A stretch of 25,392 bases of DNA from the IMG/VR virus record IMGVR_UViG_3300025168_000603, positions 1 through 25,392 of that record; one strand, written 5' to 3'. The stretch's first letter is position 1. Each line of letters begins with the position of its first letter. The DNA comes from a virus. Positions 15,581 to 25,297 of the stretch are shown here, in pieces. The translations under genes and the position numbers were made by a program. Under the pieces are notes generated by a model. That model did no database searches, was not told where the DNA came from, and saw nothing but the letters and a program-made list of their open reading frames with translations.

Positions 15581-15622
15581 TAAAAAGTCTTATATACTCT
15601 TATTTTTTGGGGGATAAATTTG

Positions 15623-15841
15623 ATGGATACAACAAAATGGCGTCAGGTTCTTGTGCCAATAGACGTTTACCATCGGCTTGTCACGATGGCCCATATTGAG
15701 GAACGAACAATAAGCGGGCAAGTGCGCGTCATTTTTAACCAGTGGGTAGACACTAATTTAAGTAAGGCGGATCGAAAATTTTTAGAAGAAGAAACCGAAA
15801 TTATTGTTGAAAAAGAAAAAAAACGTAGATCAGAATTGTGA
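15623..15841 (+). CDS. Ribbon-helix-helix-like small protein
   Basis: A 72-residue protein. The ATG at 15623 is preferred over the adjacent TTG; GGGGA lies about 9 bases upstream. The pattern 'WRQVLVPIDVYHRLVTMAH' followed by 'RTISGQVRVIFNQWV' fits a ribbon-helix-helix DNA-binding fold (short strand, then two helices), followed by a charged helical tail. Such proteins usually dimerise and bind palindromic operators. It could regulate the small-gene cassette that follows. A possible -10 box TATACT (15593-15598) precedes it without a clear -35. Confidence 0.65.
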   Translation: MDTTKWRQVLVPIDVYHRLVTMAHIEERTISGQVRVIFNQWVDTNLSKADRKFLEEETEIIVEKEKKRRSEL

Positions 15842-16177: not shown

Positions 16178-16489
16178 ATGACAACAACCTATTCCCTCCC
16201 TGATTTTGAACCTTCTGTTTCTACGGTTATCGAAATTACTTCTTCTCAAGTTTACGGGACTCTCATTGAACTTGACAGAGAATTAATTGGCGGCGAAGAC
16301 TACCTTGGTCTGGCTAAGTGGTGGTCGTCCGGTAGAGACGATTATTACCACATTCTTAAAAATGTTAGTTCGTTTAAACGCAAGAGAATTCACGACGTAC
16401 TGGTCCATAATAAAATACCCTTGGCGCAACCTGATAGAGATTTTGGTGAGCAAGAACTTGCTTCCGAAATTTATCGAAGATACTTATGA
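16178..16489 (+). CDS. Hypothetical phage protein
   Basis: A 103-residue protein with a strong ribosome binding site (AGAGG about 10 bases upstream) in the shared TTCATTCA leader. It is mixed acidic and aromatic (contains 'YLGLAKWWSSGRDDYYHILK' and 'FKRKRIHDVLVHNKIPLA'), likely a compact helical fold. No family is recognised. Its stop overlaps the start of a tiny membrane peptide (ATGA). Confidence 0.65.
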   Translation: MTTTYSLPDFEPSVSTVIEITSSQVYGTLIELDRELIGGEDYLGLAKWWSSGRDDYYHILKNVSSFKRKRIHDVLVHNKIPLAQPDRDFGEQELASEIYRRYL

Positions 16490-16578
16490 TTCGATTCATT
16501 TTTGCTTTTTTTGCCACAATGCTCACTTGGTTAGTTTATTTGGTGGGTGTAATTGTAATTTTAACATGGATTTTTTAG
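16486..16578 (+). CDS. Thirty-residue single-pass membrane peptide
   Basis: Starts with ATG overlapping the previous stop (ATGA) and encodes 30 residues that are almost entirely hydrophobic (MIRFIFAFFATMLTWLVYLV and a further hydrophobic tail), i.e. one transmembrane helix. Start/stop coupling and the ribosome binding site of the next gene lying at its stop codon support it as real. A holin-like, membrane-regulatory or superinfection role is possible, but nothing in the sequence decides. Confidence 0.6.
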   Translation: MIRFIFAFFATMLTWLVYLVGVIVILTWIF

Positions 16579-16588
16579 GAGAACGACA

Positions 16589-16744
16589 ATGACTGAAGAA
16601 CAGATGATGAGTAACGCGTGGTGGGTATGTGAAAGTTGTAGCAACGAATGGTCAGCAATGTTAGGTGATAACGAAGTTCCAGAACGCTGTGAATGTGGCG
16701 GCAAAATCAAGGAGAACGATGATGACCATTCAAGAACTAATTAA
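16589..16744 (+). CDS. Small zinc-ribbon protein
   Basis: A 51-residue protein with TAGGAG 9 bases before the ATG at 16589. It contains CESC (Cys14, Cys17) and CEC (Cys34, Cys36), i.e. a probable four-Cys zinc site, and the rubredoxin/zinc-ribbon-like 'WWVCESCSNEWSA' context. It overlaps the next gene by 23 bases. Function unknown; many such phage peptides bind host transcription or nucleic-acid proteins. Confidence 0.65.
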   Translation: MTEEQMMSNAWWVCESCSNEWSAMLGDNEVPERCECGGKIKENDDDHSRTN

Positions 16745-17258: not shown

Positions 17259-17451
17259 TTTTACCGAAGAAGAACTAGAAATTATTACATCTCTAGCATT
17301 TAACGCGGCAATGGATTGCGACTCTGATCTTGGCGGGAAATATTCTGAAAACTTGTCGGAAACTTCGCGGGAAGTTTTGCAAGTACATAGTGAGCGTTTG
17401 TTAGGAATTGGTAAAAAACTCGCCGGAGTAAACAAAAATGAAGCTTTGTGA
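17251..17451 (+). CDS. Small acidic helical hypothetical protein
   Basis: A 66-residue protein; ATG at 17251 has AAGGAG 7 bases upstream and overlaps the previous gene by 8 bases. Acidic and helical (TEEELEIITSLAFNAAMD), with no recognised domain. Part of the tightly overlapping small-gene cassette. Confidence 0.65.
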   Translation: MIDFTEEELEIITSLAFNAAMDCDSDLGGKYSENLSETSREVLQVHSERLLGIGKKLAGVNKNEAL

Positions 17452-17638: not shown

Positions 17639-18146
17639 TGAACCTAAAACTTTTGCGGCTATGGCACAATATGCACATGTTTTAAATTCTAAAAAAGAAC
17701 TTGGCCCAACCAATTTGTACACAAAAAAACCTTTAAAAATTGCTCTTACTACAACTGACGGTAAGGAACACCTTGATTTTGTTACGTTTTTTTTAATCAA
17801 TCAAATAAATTCGTTAGAGTCAAGGTACCCTAATTCTGGTTTAGCGGGGGGATTTTTACAAAATGGCAACGAGGAAAAAATGGGATGGGATACCGTAAAA
17901 ACTTTTACCAAAAAGATAACTAAGGTAATTCAACATCACCCTTATTTTCGAGATTACGCATCTTTGGGCGATAGGGTACCGATATTAAACGCAAACATCT
18001 TCATGCGGTACGAGGAAAATACGATGTCTCTTCCTAATTATCACGAATCGGATATTTGTTTTGTTTTAAATTGGATAAAAAACGATATATTAATTGATCT
18101 ATATTCCCGTGATCAAAAACGTTTGCAAGGAAAATGGAGCAACTAA
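17625..18146 (+). CDS. Hypothetical phage protein
   Basis: A 173-residue protein. The start at 17625 is supported by TAGGAG 8 bases before it; a longer frame from a TTG at 17607 is unlikely. It overlaps the previous gene by 14 bases. The sequence is mixed alpha/beta, with no membrane segment or catalytic signature that I recognise. Confidence 0.7.
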   Translation: MAYLNEPKTFAAMAQYAHVLNSKKELGPTNLYTKKPLKIALTTTDGKEHLDFVTFFLINQINSLESRYPNSGLAGGFLQNGNEEKMGWDTVKTFTKKITKVIQHHPYFRDYASLGDRVPILNANIFMRYEENTMSLPNYHESDICFVLNWIKNDILIDLYSRDQKRLQGKWSN

Positions 18147-18322: not shown

Positions 18323-18558
18323 ATAATGACAGAGATCCGGTAGTTCTCGATGAAATAAAGCACGATTTACAGCAAAACTATTCAACACAAAGCATAGAAA
18401 TTGATCCTGACGCGCAGTACGAAGAAAAACGTGATAAAGAACTTGCAGATGACAGAAAAGCTGTATGTGGCATTATGGCAGAATTGGGGCAACGCCCGAT
18501 CAATGGTATCATCAAAGACATTATGAAATTAATTGACAACGCGAGGAAATTTGGATGA
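18319..18558 (+). CDS. Small acidic hypothetical protein
   Basis: A 79-residue, Asp/Glu-rich protein starting in an ATGA overlap with the previous gene; GGAG lies upstream. It is acidic throughout its first half, with a helical C-terminus (INGIIKDIMKLIDNARKFG). Its stop overlaps the lipase start (ATGA), so the two are coupled. Confidence 0.6.
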   Translation: MNNDRDPVVLDEIKHDLQQNYSTQSIEIDPDAQYEEKRDKELADDRKAVCGIMAELGQRPINGIIKDIMKLIDNARKFG

Positions 18559-19271
18559 AAAATCTAAAAAACGCGGCACTTTTATGCAAACAAGCTTACA
18601 AGTCTGGCATTCCTAAGACGTTAAAAATTGAAAATAAAAAAACTTCGATGGTCGCGTTTTTAAAACGTGAAAAAAATGCTAACTGGCTTGTCTTTCGGGG
18701 AACCGATAGCTTAAAAGATTGGGCTTACAATGCCAATTTTTTGCCCGTAAGGGTGCAAGGGTCTTGGATTCATTGCGGTTTTTGGCTTGCTCACCGTAGT
18801 ATATGGAAAGAAATACGCAAAGAATTAGACCCGCAAAAAAAATTAATTGTTACAGGGCATTCTTTGGGCGGCGCGTTGGCAGAGATTAGTATTTTATACC
18901 TTATGAGAAAAGGATTTAAAAATGTGGATCTCATCACTTTTGGCAAACCAAACGTTTTTGCTAAATGGCAAAGGGGAAAACAAGCACGTTTAAACGGTGA
19001 AGGGTTCAAGGTGCAACTTTCAGTTGTTAACGGGTCGGATGTGGTGGCTCGTATTCCTCGTATAGGCTATCGTGCCGCACTTAATCAAACGCAATTATGG
19101 TTTGCAGAAAATGAGGATTTTGTGGATCCTACGCCGGAGATGAAAAAAGACCAGTGGGAAATGTTTTCATCCGTCAGCAGTCACGACATGAGTAAATATT
19201 GCGAAAGAGTAGATGATTTTTTAGAAAGTGGATTTTTAGTCGCAACGCTAACCTCTAGTTTGCGTGAATGA
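18555..19271 (+). CDS. Class 3 lipase-like alpha/beta hydrolase
   Basis: A 238-residue protein with the lipase class 3 pattern: FRGTDSLKDW (47-56, oxyanion-hole region), the nucleophile elbow GHSLGG (Ser103), FGKPNV after the next strand, Asp162 in NGSDVVARIP and His210 in SSHD, giving a complete Ser-Asp-His triad. No signal peptide or membrane segment is evident, so it would act in the cytoplasm or be released at lysis. Lipase 3 enzymes hydrolyse acylglycerols or phospholipids; in phages they are uncommon. Possible roles are membrane weakening at lysis or lipid remodelling during infection (inference). It is the last gene before a hairpin and a strong terminator and is coupled to the upstream small gene by ATGA. 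Confidence 0.85.
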   Translation: MKNLKNAALLCKQAYKSGIPKTLKIENKKTSMVAFLKREKNANWLVFRGTDSLKDWAYNANFLPVRVQGSWIHCGFWLAHRSIWKEIRKELDPQKKLIVTGHSLGGALAEISILYLMRKGFKNVDLITFGKPNVFAKWQRGKQARLNGEGFKVQLSVVNGSDVVARIPRIGYRAALNQTQLWFAENEDFVDPTPEMKKDQWEMFSSVSSHDMSKYCERVDDFLESGFLVATLTSSLRE

Positions 19272-19364: not shown

Positions 19365-19439
19365 AACTGGTGCAACTGGTGCAACCTTCACGGATCACGG
19401 GGCTTTGACGGGGTACACTAGGTTGCACGGGGTACACGG
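19365..19439. repeat. Repeat cluster upstream of terS (candidate packaging or origin site)
   Basis: Contains a tandem 9-mer AACTGGTGC (19365-19382), a direct repeat ACGGGGTACAC (19408-19418 and 19427-19437), a perfect 9-bp inverted repeat GTGCAACCT/AGGTTGCAC (19379-19387 and 19420-19428), and CACGG at 19389, 19396, 19426 and 19435. CACGG is the reverse complement of the CCGTG core of the array before terL. This density in a non-coding gap next to the small terminase suggests a pac/cos or replication site. Confidence 0.55.
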
Positions 19440-19535: not shown

Positions 19536-20132
19536 ATGAAAAGCCGCTACACAATGCCGCTCGAAGAGCGCAGAAAAAGAAACGCTCCCACTAAGCCGAG
19601 AAAGCTTGTTCCCCCTGAAAACCTTCCTTTAACGGGTAAGCAATCCCGTTTTGTAAAGGAGTACGTTATGTCGGACGGCATGTCTTCGCAGACAGAATGC
19701 GCTATTTCCGCAGGTTTTGGGGCAAAACATGCCACCGCTACCGCCTCCAAACTGATACGCCTTCCCCATGTGGCAAAGGCCATTGCCATCGCTACGCGAG
19801 AACGTGACGAAAAATACGGGATTAAATATGAAAGGCATTTAAGAACCTTGGCTGAAATTAGAGATAAAGCGTTAGCTGACGAATCTTACGCGGCGGCAAT
19901 TAATGCCGAGTATAGACGCGGGCAAGTGGGCGGCTTGTATATAAATAGAACAGAGGTCCGTCATGGGTCGATTGACTCAATGTCAAAAGAGGACGTTTTG
20001 AGGGCTTTGAATGAAATTCGAGGAACTATTATCGACGGGCATTCCGAAGAAATCCACGATTCGGAAAAAATCGGAAGCAAACTTCTGGAAGTCAATAAAA
20101 AGCCAATCGAAGAAACAACTCCCCCGTTATAG
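19536..20132 (+). CDS. terS: Terminase small subunit
   Basis: About 198 residues from the ATG at 19536; an ATG at 19554 is an alternative and neither has a Shine-Dalgarno site. After a basic N-terminus comes 'LTGKQSRFVKEYVMSDGMSS', then QTECAISAGFGAKHATATASKLIR, the DNA-binding helix-turn-helix pattern of Terminase_2-type small subunits. It recognises the packaging site and recruits TerL. The gene lies directly after a terminator and a repeat cluster that could be the packaging site. Its last 122 bases overlap the nuclease gene in another frame. It is separated from terL by a block of minus-strand genes, which is unusual. Confidence 0.85.
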   Translation: MKSRYTMPLEERRKRNAPTKPRKLVPPENLPLTGKQSRFVKEYVMSDGMSSQTECAISAGFGAKHATATASKLIRLPHVAKAIAIATRERDEKYGIKYERHLRTLAEIRDKALADESYAAAINAEYRRGQVGGLYINRTEVRHGSIDSMSKEDVLRALNEIRGTIIDGHSEEIHDSEKIGSKLLEVNKKPIEETTPPL

Positions 20133-22747: not shown

Positions 22748-22781
22748 ATATGCCCCCTTGCGGGGGCGTTTAAACGTTTAT
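22748..22781. repeat. 34-bp gene-end element, copy 2
   Basis: Exact duplicate of 22350-22383, again ending in the stop codon of the upstream gene (here the SprT-like protease) and preceding the next gene's leader. Two exact copies 398 bases apart, each between genes, suggest a functional transcript element or a spreading intergenic repeat. Confidence 0.85.
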
Positions 22782-23365
22782 TAAAGCGTTGTGTCTAGAT
22801 CGCCTTCGCACACTTGGCATATGTGCGAGTTCATAGCTTCAACATTCTTTTTGCTGGTTCTAAAAGACCACGTACAAACCGTGCATGATACTTTTATCAT
22901 TCTCGTGGATTGTTTTTTCCGGCCGGATAAGTCGAGCTTTGCATGCGGGTATTCGCCTATTCTTTTTACAATTTTCTTTAGTGTTACTAGCAATTCTTCG
23001 CCCGCAATTGTTGCGGTCATTTTGCCGGTAAGTCCGATAGATAAAGCCAACTTCCGGAAGGCGGGGCCGTGGCCTGATTCGTTCCCATCTATTGCGTGGC
23101 AAAATTCATGGCAAAGAACGTCTAAGACTCTCTCACTTTCACATAGTTCCGGCGATAAAAAGATTTCTATTTTTTGATCCGCCGATGATGTGGCGGGAAA
23201 GCACACTCCTAATGTTTGATTTTTTGCGCCCGCTTTACGATTTGATAAAGCCCCGCAACCGATACGTATATTTTCGGGTATTGTTAAACCGGCGGGTCCG
23301 AAGACTTCTTCTTGTAACATAGGCAAAGCCGCCAGTATCCAATCTTCTCTGTTTAATATAGCCAT
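22781..23365 (-). CDS. SprT-like zinc metalloprotease with C-terminal zinc ribbon
   Basis: A 194-residue protein. The ATG at 23365 is chosen because it follows the shared leader block (AAAAAGAG). HEFCH (86-90) and GHG (98-100, His99) form the SprT-type zinc site; the C-terminus has CTVC (161-164) and HICQVC (181-186), a zinc ribbon typical of SprT-like proteins. SprT/Spartan enzymes are linked to DNA-protein crosslink repair. It is the first gene of the minus-strand block, placed beside the promoter at 23397-23425. The protein is distinct in sequence from the one at 5836-6315. Confidence 0.82.
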   Translation of the reverse strand: MAILNREDWILAALPMLQEEVFGPAGLTIPENIRIGCGALSNRKAGAKNQTLGVCFPATSSADQKIEIFLSPELCESERVLDVLCHEFCHAIDGNESGHGPAFRKLALSIGLTGKMTATIAGEELLVTLKKIVKRIGEYPHAKLDLSGRKKQSTRMIKVSCTVCTWSFRTSKKNVEAMNSHICQVCEGDLDTTL

Positions 23366-23396
23366 GTGTAGTACTCTTTTTAATGAATGAGATATA

Positions 23397-23425
23397 ACTT
23401 TACTACCTTGTTTAAACAATGTCAA
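23397..23425 (-). promoter_or_regulatory. Promoter of the minus-strand block, with GTTTAAAC palindrome in the spacer
   Basis: Minus strand TTGACA (23420-23425, perfect), a 17-base spacer, then TAAAGT (23397-23402, 4 of 6). The spacer contains the palindrome TTGTTTAAACAA (23408-23419), ideally placed for a repressor. Transcription would start just before the TTCATTA leader of the SprT-like gene. Confidence 0.55.
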
Positions 23426-23548
23426 ACAATGTGCAACAAATAAATTAAATAAATTAATCGACTATATAGGGTCGAGGTAAACTCGACTTGTTTCTTAATA
23501 CTTATATGTATGTAACAAGTACCCCACCCCCACCCCCCTTGCTTTTTT

Positions 23549-23625
23549 CCGTGGACCGTGGACCGTGAACCGTGGTTCACTAAGCAAGTGACACTAAGCA
23601 AGGCCCGTGGCCCGTGAACCGTTGC
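23549..23625 (+). repeat. Heptad-phased repeat array (CCGTG units)
   Basis: Four consecutive 7-mers CCGTGGA, CCGTGGA, CCGTGAA, CCGTGGT (23549-23576); then two copies of a 14-base unit containing ACTAAGCAAG (23577-23604); then CCGTGGC, CCGTGAA, CCGTTGC (23605-23625). All eleven heptads are in one phase. The inverted repeat GTGAACC-GT-GGTTCAC (23565-23580) is embedded. Confidence 0.85.
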
Positions 23626-23829
23626 GCGTCTCGCATGGGTCACGGCGCGTTTAAACGTCCCTAGTATCTTTTTAGCGGGACTCCGGCAATAGAGGCTAAA
23701 TCTAATGAAATCAATGACTTAGCGCACGATCCACGAATCAGGGGGTTTCCCGTCACCGGAGGGGGCTTGGGCCATGTTTCTCTCAAACAAATCTTGTTAA
23801 AATGTTATTAAAATCTTTTTCTTTTACTA

Positions 23830-23838
23830 TGATATAGT
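23830..23838 (+). promoter_or_regulatory. Extended -10 promoter giving a leaderless terL transcript
   Basis: TGATATAGT: TGn extension plus TATAGT (23833-23838, 5 of 6). A start about 7 bases downstream falls at or next to the ATG at 23846. No Shine-Dalgarno sequence is present, supporting a leaderless mRNA. Confidence 0.55.
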
Positions 23839-23845
23839 CTTATAT

Positions 23846-25297
23846 ATGAGCGTGATTACAGAGACAGACGAAAAGATAATGAAGCTGGAACTTAGGCTGG
23901 CCCAGCTTGAACGCCTTGAGGCGTGTAACGATAACTTTATAGAATTCGTAAAAGCCATGTGGCCTGAGTTTATCACCGGCAAGCATCATCAGATTATTGC
24001 GGATAAGCTTGAACGTGTAGCCAGTGGCGATTTAAAGCGTTTAATAATAAATATGCCGCCTCGGCACACGAAATCAGAGTTTGCTAGTTATCTGTTTCCT
24101 GCGTGGATGATTGGTAAGAATCCTTCAATGAAAATCATACAAGCCACACACACCACGGAGCTTGCGGTGGGCTTTGGTCGTAAGGTCAAGAACCTTTTGG
24201 ACAGGGAAGAATATCGTGAAATTTTTGAAGACACGGAACTTGCTGTTGATTCAAAGGCTTCTGGGCGATGGGATACGTCTCGCGGCGGAATGTACTATGC
24301 CGTTGGCGTAGGTTCTAACTTGGCGGGTCGTGGTGGTGATTTAATTATTATTGATGATCCTCATTCTGAGCAGACGGCGATGTCGAATAATGGTTTTGAT
24401 GACGCATGGGATTGGTATACGGGAGGTCCCCGACAACGGTTACAGCCTAACGGGGCAATAGTTTTGGTAATGACACGTTGGTCAGACAAGGATCTGACGG
24501 GGCAGTTGATGCGTTCACAGGCTAAAGAGAATAGAGCGGATCAGTGGGAAGTGGTGGAGCTACCTGCGATTATGCCTAGCGGAAAGTCTTGTTGGCCTGA
24601 ATATTGGCCGCTTGTAGATCTTGAAGCAGTAAAAGCCTCAATTCCTGTTAGCAAGTGGAATGCTCAGTATCAGCAGAATCCGACGGGTGATGAGACGTCT
24701 ATTTTAAAGCGGGAGTGGTGGAATCTTTGGGAAAAAGAAACGGTTCCTGCACTAGAGTATGTTATTCAAAGTTATGATACGGCGTTTAGTAAAAGAGAAA
24801 CGGCGGACTACAGTGCGATTACAACGTGGGGTGTGTTCTTTCCAAACGAGTCAGGGACCCCTAATCTGATACTTTTGGACTCAGTTAAAGGGCGATGGGA
24901 CTTTCCTGAATTAAAAGCAAAGGCGTATGAGCTTTATAAGTTCTGGGACCCCGAAACAGTAATTATTGAAGCAAAGGCGACAGGTACCCCTTTAACGCAT
25001 GAATTAAGAAACATGGGAATTCCTGTGGTAAACTTTACGCCTTCTAGGGGTAATGATAAAGTATCGCGTGTACACAGTGTAGCTCCGTTATTTGAAAGCG
25101 GTATGATATGGGCCCCCGATGAAACATGGGCCGAAGAGCTTATAGAAGAGTGTGCAGCCTTTCCAAATGGGGAGTATGACGACTTGGTAGATAGCACGAC
25201 ACAAGCGTTGATGCGGTATCGGCAGGGCAACTTTGTCCAGTTGCCGTCGGATGATTGGGAAGATCCTGAACCACAACAGATCCAGTATTACGGCTGA
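23846..25297 (+). CDS. terL: Terminase large subunit
   Basis: A 483-residue DNA-packaging motor. ATPase part: the Walker A-like MPPRHTKSE (about residues 70-78) and Walker B LIIIDDPH, with downstream 'MTRWSDKDLTG' typical of phage terminases. Nuclease part (RNase H-like): Asp in SYDTAF, Glu in VIIEAKATG and Asp in DDLVDSTTQAL. It cleaves concatemers and drives DNA into proheads together with TerS and the portal protein. The length is usual for the family. The start at 23846 follows an extended -10 promoter without leader. It begins the late virion operon, which continues beyond the window. Confidence 0.95.
   Translation: MSVITETDEKIMKLELRLAQLERLEACNDNFIEFVKAMWPEFITGKHHQIIADKLERVASGDLKRLIINMPPRHTKSEFASYLFPAWMIGKNPSMKIIQATHTTELAVGFGRKVKNLLDREEYREIFEDTELAVDSKASGRWDTSRGGMYYAVGVGSNLAGRGGDLIIIDDPHSEQTAMSNNGFDDAWDWYTGGPRQRLQPNGAIVLVMTRWSDKDLTGQLMRSQAKENRADQWEVVELPAIMPSGKSCWPEYWPLVDLEAVKASIPVSKWNAQYQQNPTGDETSILKREWWNLWEKETVPALEYVIQSYDTAFSKRETADYSAITTWGVFFPNESGTPNLILLDSVKGRWDFPELKAKAYELYKFWDPETVIIEAKATGTPLTHELRNMGIPVVNFTPSRGNDKVSRVHSVAPLFESGMIWAPDETWAEELIEECAAFPNGEYDDLVDSTTQALMRYRQGNFVQLPSDDWEDPEPQQIQYYG

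Follow-up and report, generated by a model that had tools for sequence, protein, structure and literature searches.

What is a 77-bp run of short repeats, set in steps of exactly seven bases, doing just upstream of the gene for the large terminase (terL) of a phage, and which protein would recognise it? We addressed this in the window, i.e. the whole stretch of DNA analysed, a linear IMG/VR fragment of 25,392 bp, and in its relatives. The array has the look of a landing strip, one for a phage protein of several subunits that initiates packaging or turns on late genes.

Eleven seven-base steps upstream of terL

The following features of the window surround the array or repeat its motif:

23522..23538, + strand: C-rich tract CCCCACCCCCACCCCCC adjoining the array (sequence reading and TRF)
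23549..23625, + strand: heptad lattice, 11 x 7 bp in one phase, in the direction of terL (read directly)
23577..23604, + strand: spacer of 28 nt that preserves the 7-bp phase, 14-mers TCACTAAGCAAGTG then ACACTAAGCAAGGC
23677..23698, + strand: block A, GGGACTCCGGCAATAGAGGCTA (GGGNNYCC...), conserved, 97 bp upstream of the B core
23761..23792, + strand: block B, GGGGGCTTGGGCCATGTTTCTCTCAAACAAAT, imperfect dyad with core start at 23774, conserved, single copy
23828..23852, + strand: AT-rich GTCTTATAT region, possible terL promoter or start (by eye)
23846..25297, + strand: terL, large terminase, first late gene
19388..19400, - strand: heptad doublet CCGTGATCCGTGA, about 136 bp upstream of the ATG of the small terminase gene (TerS), on the opposite strand

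Read directly, the 77 bp divide into eleven 7-bp steps in a single phase, so the array reported by the first-pass annotation is real. Its first block holds four CCGTGRN units (CCGTGGA at 23549, CCGTGGA at 23556, CCGTGAA at 23563 and CCGTGGT at 23570) and its last block CCGTGGC (23605), CCGTGAA (23612) and CCGTTGC (23619). The layout of seven CCGTG-type heptamers, four and three, stands, except that the seventh unit is CCGTT and not CCGTG. The blocks do lie exactly 28 bases apart, and the spacer does consist of two 14-mers, although these are imperfect copies, identical at 11/14 positions (79%). The array also lies before the large terminase gene as described, in a 420-bp non-coding gap between terL and a divergent SprT-like gene (22781-23425, - strand).

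The doublet CCGTGRNCCGTGR, with at most one mismatch, occurs nine times in the window against 0.10 expected, five of the nine within the array, and a count of nine was reached by 0/100 shuffles. TRF reports 7-bp arrays at 23549-23575 and 23602-23616, and in the stretch upstream of terL lags 7 and 14 exceed 100/100 dinucleotide shuffles. The sole other exact doublet of the motif in the window, CCGTGATCCGTGA, stands inverted upstream of TerS, an arrangement seen again in relatives.

An RNA element, either a structured leader or a small RNA, might explain the inverted repeat GTGAACC-GT-GGTTCAC at 23566-23581. The fold z-scores (-0.74 for RNA, +0.53 for DNA) reveal no excess folding and no Rfam match was found, on which grounds we rejected it. 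Several relatives, read by eye, also carry a terminator-like hairpin of the upstream gene with a T run before the lattice, and the conserved block B after it. An RNA function is thus extremely improbable.

Heptad phase and direction across the phage family

We compared the window with 80 terL relatives and with HTVC027P, 023Pt_psg01, HTVC023P, DSL-LC04 and MinM2, scoring each lag between 700 and 100 bp upstream of terL against 100 dinucleotide shuffles. Among the 73 usable loci, lag 7 rose above all 100 shuffles in 36, the window counted in, and lags 14, 21 and 28 did so in 31, 23 and 16, respectively; any lag outside this series reached at most 6/73 loci, and three control stretches gave 0-3 loci at lag 7. 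A replication set of 43 independent loci, picked solely by block B and having less than 30% of 13-mers in common with the first set, gave lag 7 in 14/43, lag 14 in 12/43 and lag 21 in 9/43, with at most 3/43 for any lag not divisible by 7. As the loci are related by descent, the p-values of these comparisons are descriptive. The first-pass annotation had staked its reading on heptad phasing being conserved in relatives, and it survived this comparison well in both sets. It in fact under-sold the array: CCGTG heptads kept in phase typify the phage family, and carriers of the array are found among its marine and freshwater members.

When whole contigs are taken together, about 678 kb, lag-7 arrays rich in G/C are nearly confined to the region upstream of terL. 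HTVC027P (L091) is the clear exception, with three arrays of GCTTGNN, a motif unlike that of the rest of the family, at 16500-16650, 17394-17440 and 17718-17740, about 2.7-4 kb upstream of terL and near TerS. No statistically clear array was found in about half of the relatives. A group of close relatives (L006-L008, L014 and L017) has a long G/C-rich inverted repeat, such as CCCCCCACCC...GGGTGGGGGG, upstream of terL, where heptads are absent. Because arrays often generate spurious ORFs, a crude comparison of coding and non-coding sequence was put aside.

The letters of the heptad unit differ widely among phages (e.g. CCGCTAC, TTCGTGG), and up to about 15 contiguous heptads occur in L067. Enrichment of hexamers upstream of block B, over 49 dereplicated loci, is strongest for CCGTGG (91 against 10.2 expected), and its reverse complement CCACGG stays at background level (10). 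CCGTG outnumbers CACGG in 35 loci and is outnumbered in 6, pointing along terL, a strand bias that was not found in control regions. Furthermore, gaps of 10-80 bp between successive CCGTG motifs are multiples of 7 in 40/53 cases, and still in 33/45 when near-perfect arrays are left out, indicating that the register persists across degenerate heptads, as it does in the 28-nt spacer of the window.

To look at the motif irrespective of genes, we scanned 2.9 million viral contigs for CCGTGRNCCGTGRNCCGTG, i.e. three in-phase CCGTG heptads. Among the matches listed, 60 of the 80 loci examined hold the TerS or TerL of the phage family; among these same matches, terL lies 0.1-2.1 kb downstream in the same direction in 22 loci, TerS lies downstream of the array in 2 further loci, and in 14 loci a divergent TerS has the array 0.3-0.65 kb upstream of it. 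A complete scan with the same motif at period 8 returned just 36 loci, 2 with TerL, and scrambled heptads (GCGTC) gave 15/80 loci with the family's TerS or TerL. The contrast between 60/80 and these controls ties CCGTG heptads to both packaging genes. In L251, L254, L256, L265, L276, L292 and L308, similar triplets (CAAGGCTCCGTGGCCCGTGAYCCGTG and variants) fall within open frames some 290-300 codons long, so that the heptads recur at yet a third kind of location.

Could the arrays nevertheless be neutral or weakly selected satellites, gathered and then decaying in an unconstrained spacer before terL because slippage favours 7-nt units? Heptamers are over-represented among the simple repeats of many bacterial genomes, for which slippage related to the polymerase footprint has been put forward (PMC4692102, PMC4679880). 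In our data, the close pair L044 and L046 differs in length by whole heptad units, unit sequence is highly variable, periods of 8, 9, 11, 16, 20 and 22 expand in the spacer of some relatives, and scrambled heptads too show some enrichment in the family. What slippage has to contend with is one motif in one direction that recurs over diverged spacers, the near confinement of G/C-rich heptad arrays to the region upstream of terL (3-4 kb off in HTVC027P), and the preference of CCGTG over scrambled heptads for contigs with TerS or TerL (60/80 among the matches listed vs 15/80). Bacterial heptameric repeats (Xanthomonas GGGAATC, those of Nostoc, Beggiatoaceae TAACTGA) are likewise intergenic, 7-bp tandem and variable in length, but they are dispersed through genomes, whereas here one type of locus is tied to terminase genes with direction and phase conserved. 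We regard a neutral origin as unlikely. The spacers of L022, L019, L071, L076, L037 and L040 contain tandem repeats of 8, 9, 11, 15, 16, 20 and 22 bp, and this expansion of other periods in the same place suggests that the spacer upstream of terL is a general duplication hotspot.

The A-B core, parS sites and contig ends

Block B, with the conserved pattern GGGCCATGTTTCTCNCAAAYAWT, reaches a PWM score of 43.7 bits in the window, where the next best match is below 0, and it occurs once per genome in the whole contigs that hold it (best 30-54 bits, second best <16). The start of block A lies 96-102 bp from the B core in relatives and 97 bp in the window, giving a rigid A-B core. In an exact-pattern scan of viral contigs with B only, 67/74 loci have terL downstream of B and on its strand. 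In L019, L020, L071, L073 and L076, TerS directly precedes terL and the element lies upstream of TerS, which is the classical order of site, terS and terL. Considering the single-copy B, the fixed A-B spacing, the terL downstream, these TerS-terL rearrangements and the hairpin that precedes the lattice, the lattice and the A-B core look like a DNA-level site heading the late/packaging operon. A sigma-70 scan found no + strand promoter at 23828..23852.

Contigs end at most 1 kb upstream of terL in 32/80 cases and at most 1 kb downstream in 3/80. Measured from block B, their starts range between -2 bp and positions beyond -900 bp, past the array, and share no single position. These contig ends mark no sharp genome terminus: the pile-up upstream of terL is strong, but the ends scatter over about 1 kb, and given this scatter imprecise cutting, repeat-broken assembly and strain variation fit equally well.

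Searching with the chromosomal parS TGTTTCACGTGAAACA at no more than two mismatches, we found a parS 38-99 bp downstream of B in 38/74 B-selected loci, 26 of them exact, and 1 further parS in the remainder of the same 594 kb. About 35/80 relatives of the first set have a parS upstream of terL; it falls between B and terL, 40-330 bp upstream of terL, in L027, L029, L033, L052, L064, L067, L070, L075, L078, L081, L083 and others. Four of six control palindromes score zero, and the two that score are both two mismatches from parS and so pick up parS sites. Relatives without a parS upstream of terL often have a parS-like site on the other side of the gene, about 5.7-7.3 kb downstream (L012 6441, L016 6351, L028 6693, L034 6317; whole contigs G001, G003, G006 and G008). 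A parS of HTVC027P, at 16412, lies by our reading in coding sequence and may be due to chance. No parS was found in the window, which ends 95 bp past terL.

These sites raise the idea of a composite phage site made of a directional 7-bp nucleoprotein lattice, the rigid A-B core and, in roughly half of the relatives, a host-type parS lying between that core and terL. Through such a site, late expression or the start of packaging would be coupled to host ParB, e.g. because phage genomes are held in place or insulated within the cell. We consider such coupling decidedly unlikely. No description of a phage parS link was found in the literature searched, coverage of which was incomplete.

Since parS sites normally lie near origins (PMC10197239), they bear also on a replication origin with the heptads as iterons, which the first-pass annotation had named as an alternative. 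Repeats with an adjoining AT-rich stretch would suit an origin, as would exact DnaA boxes (TTATCCACA), which occur 425-560 bp upstream of terL solely in the subclade of L049, L050, L061, L066, L070 and L072, with 7 within 1 kb upstream of terL. Exact boxes were not found in the matching stretch of the window or of most relatives, no initiator gene was recognised beside the array, and GC skew has no switch at the site beyond gene orientation. DnaA boxes thus lend the alternative weak, subclade-limited support, and GC skew is uninformative; we rejected it and regard an origin as very unlikely.

Candidate proteins for the lattice

The window encodes two candidate binders:

19536..20132, + strand: TerS, small terminase of the Terminase_2 family, relative of SF6/SPP1 G1P
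15620..15841, + strand: gene for a small ribbon-helix-helix (RHH) protein of 73 aa, directly after polA, candidate lattice binder

The position first given for TerS is correct, with an ATG at 19536 and a stop at 20132, and the protein matches Pfam Terminase_2 (2.6e-12) and the SF6 G1P structures PDB 3zqp and 4zc3 (E 7.5e-4 and 9.6e-4). Immediately before it lies a Class 3 lipase/esterase-like ORF (18555-19271, Pfam Lipase_3). Elsewhere in the window, an ORF at 11160-11972 matches Mom-like DNA modification proteins (phrog_1384), which raises the possibility of modified phage DNA.

A pac of the SPP1 type brings together a cognate SPP1/SF6-type small terminase and sets of direct repeats at the packaging genes, and we see both here, the repeats being the heptads upstream of terL and of TerS. 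The earlier suggestion of a multimeric protein wrapping the DNA, with TerS at pac or cos-adjacent sites as one precedent, is thereby supported in part: a link to packaging follows from context, as the arrays adjoin terL and TerS and TerS is an SPP1/SF6 relative. The SPP1 pac, which overlaps the terS promoters, contains three sets of direct repeats; its boxA repeats are missing in SF6, yet the TerS proteins of SPP1 and SF6 are exchangeable (PMC4737164, PMC6316719). The present site resembles the SPP1/SF6 pac and G1P in the TerS family, matched by sequence, and in direct-repeat sets where the packaging genes begin, with letters that vary between relatives and promoters near. It differs in its strict 7-bp lattice with a conserved, directional CCGTG, in a separate A-B core of fixed spacing, and in a TerS gene usually 4-5 kb off, with the array by terL and an inverted copy by TerS. 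Direct-repeat binding sites at packaging genes are known as a kind; the strict 7-bp lattice is unusual.

We tentatively read the array as a protein-binding lattice that belongs to a pac-type site of packaging or late control. Its probable binder is an SPP1/SF6-type TerS, which context and family make the leading candidate. Several observations count against this. The DNA-binding domain of SF6 TerS showed hardly any preference for sequence (PMC4737164), in contrast to the conserved CCGTG of the present site, and TerS is usually distant from the array. Roughly half of the relatives are without a statistically clear array, near ones with G/C-rich inverted repeats in its place among them, and contig ends spread over about 1 kb instead of marking one cut.

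The serious rival to TerS is the RHH protein, one dimer of which might bind each heptad in a spiral, forming a late-gene switch or a centromere-like site. On plasmid pSM19035, the RHH protein omega/ParB binds 7-10 contiguous WATCACW heptads, unspaced, with one dimer per 7 bp and at least 4 heptads for full activity (PMC9499535), an exact precedent. As in pSM19035 parS, where the heptads are bound by the small RHH omega, the site here has several contiguous, non-palindromic heptads (CCGTGRN x4 at 23549-23576) and the same element encodes a small RHH protein, its fold supported by a model; the motif is CCGTGRN and not WATCACW, degenerate heptads are interleaved, and the site belongs to a phage late operon. 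Wherever a clade contig spans polA, the RHH gene comes after it, DSL-LC04 has an RHH-like ORF after polA too, and the AF2 model (pLDDT 88) has the order strand-helix-helix, with CopG, Arc, MatP and AmrZ among its Foldseek matches, all with weak E-values. A host-type parS beside the element would fit a partition-like role of this protein. Yet HTVC023P and 023Pt_psg01 have RHH-like proteins where clear G/C heptads are absent, and the RHH gene is far from the arrays, which track TerS and TerL instead. The strand residues predicted to face the DNA (W, Q/S, L) are atypical, matches beyond the clade are weak (E 0.0009-0.56), and a sequence search against the PDB returned no match. On this evidence, binding by the RHH protein is somewhat unlikely.

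On our preferred reading, the phage family has a cis-acting lattice for protein binding, phased in heptads, of which the array is the copy present in the window. A composite site would then stand immediately before the late/packaging operon, with the lattice as its upstream arm, followed by block A and, about 97 bp on, block B. Most likely, TerS would load on the lattice as an oligomer, with one DNA-binding domain per one or two heptads, and the directional run of CCGTG would align it with the A-B core. There TerL would be recruited and packaging would begin, making this a pac-type site; we infer the packaging role, any cleavage and the identity of the binder. Since inverted heptads lie upstream of TerS too, the lattice may also set the expression of terL and TerS.

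The cos site of lambda, too, is composite and lies before the packaging genes, consisting of cosN and a cosB with TerS-binding R sites. The resemblance (the cos side being general knowledge) lies in repeated elements combined with separate conserved blocks; here, unlike in lambda, contigs end at no fixed position, there is no lambda-type TerS and the repeats are strictly 7 bp.

To our knowledge, the sites at which abundant uncultured marine phages start packaging or control late genes have not been described. Should TerS bind the lattice, its recognition of DNA would depend on sequence and phase, although the best-studied member of its family binds nearly unselectively. If confirmed, the link to parS would represent a new phage use of host chromosome machinery. 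Three CCGTG heptads in phase, or blocks A and B at a distance of about 97 bp, serve as sequence-only markers of the site across the family, and make the identity of the lattice binder directly testable in cultured relatives.
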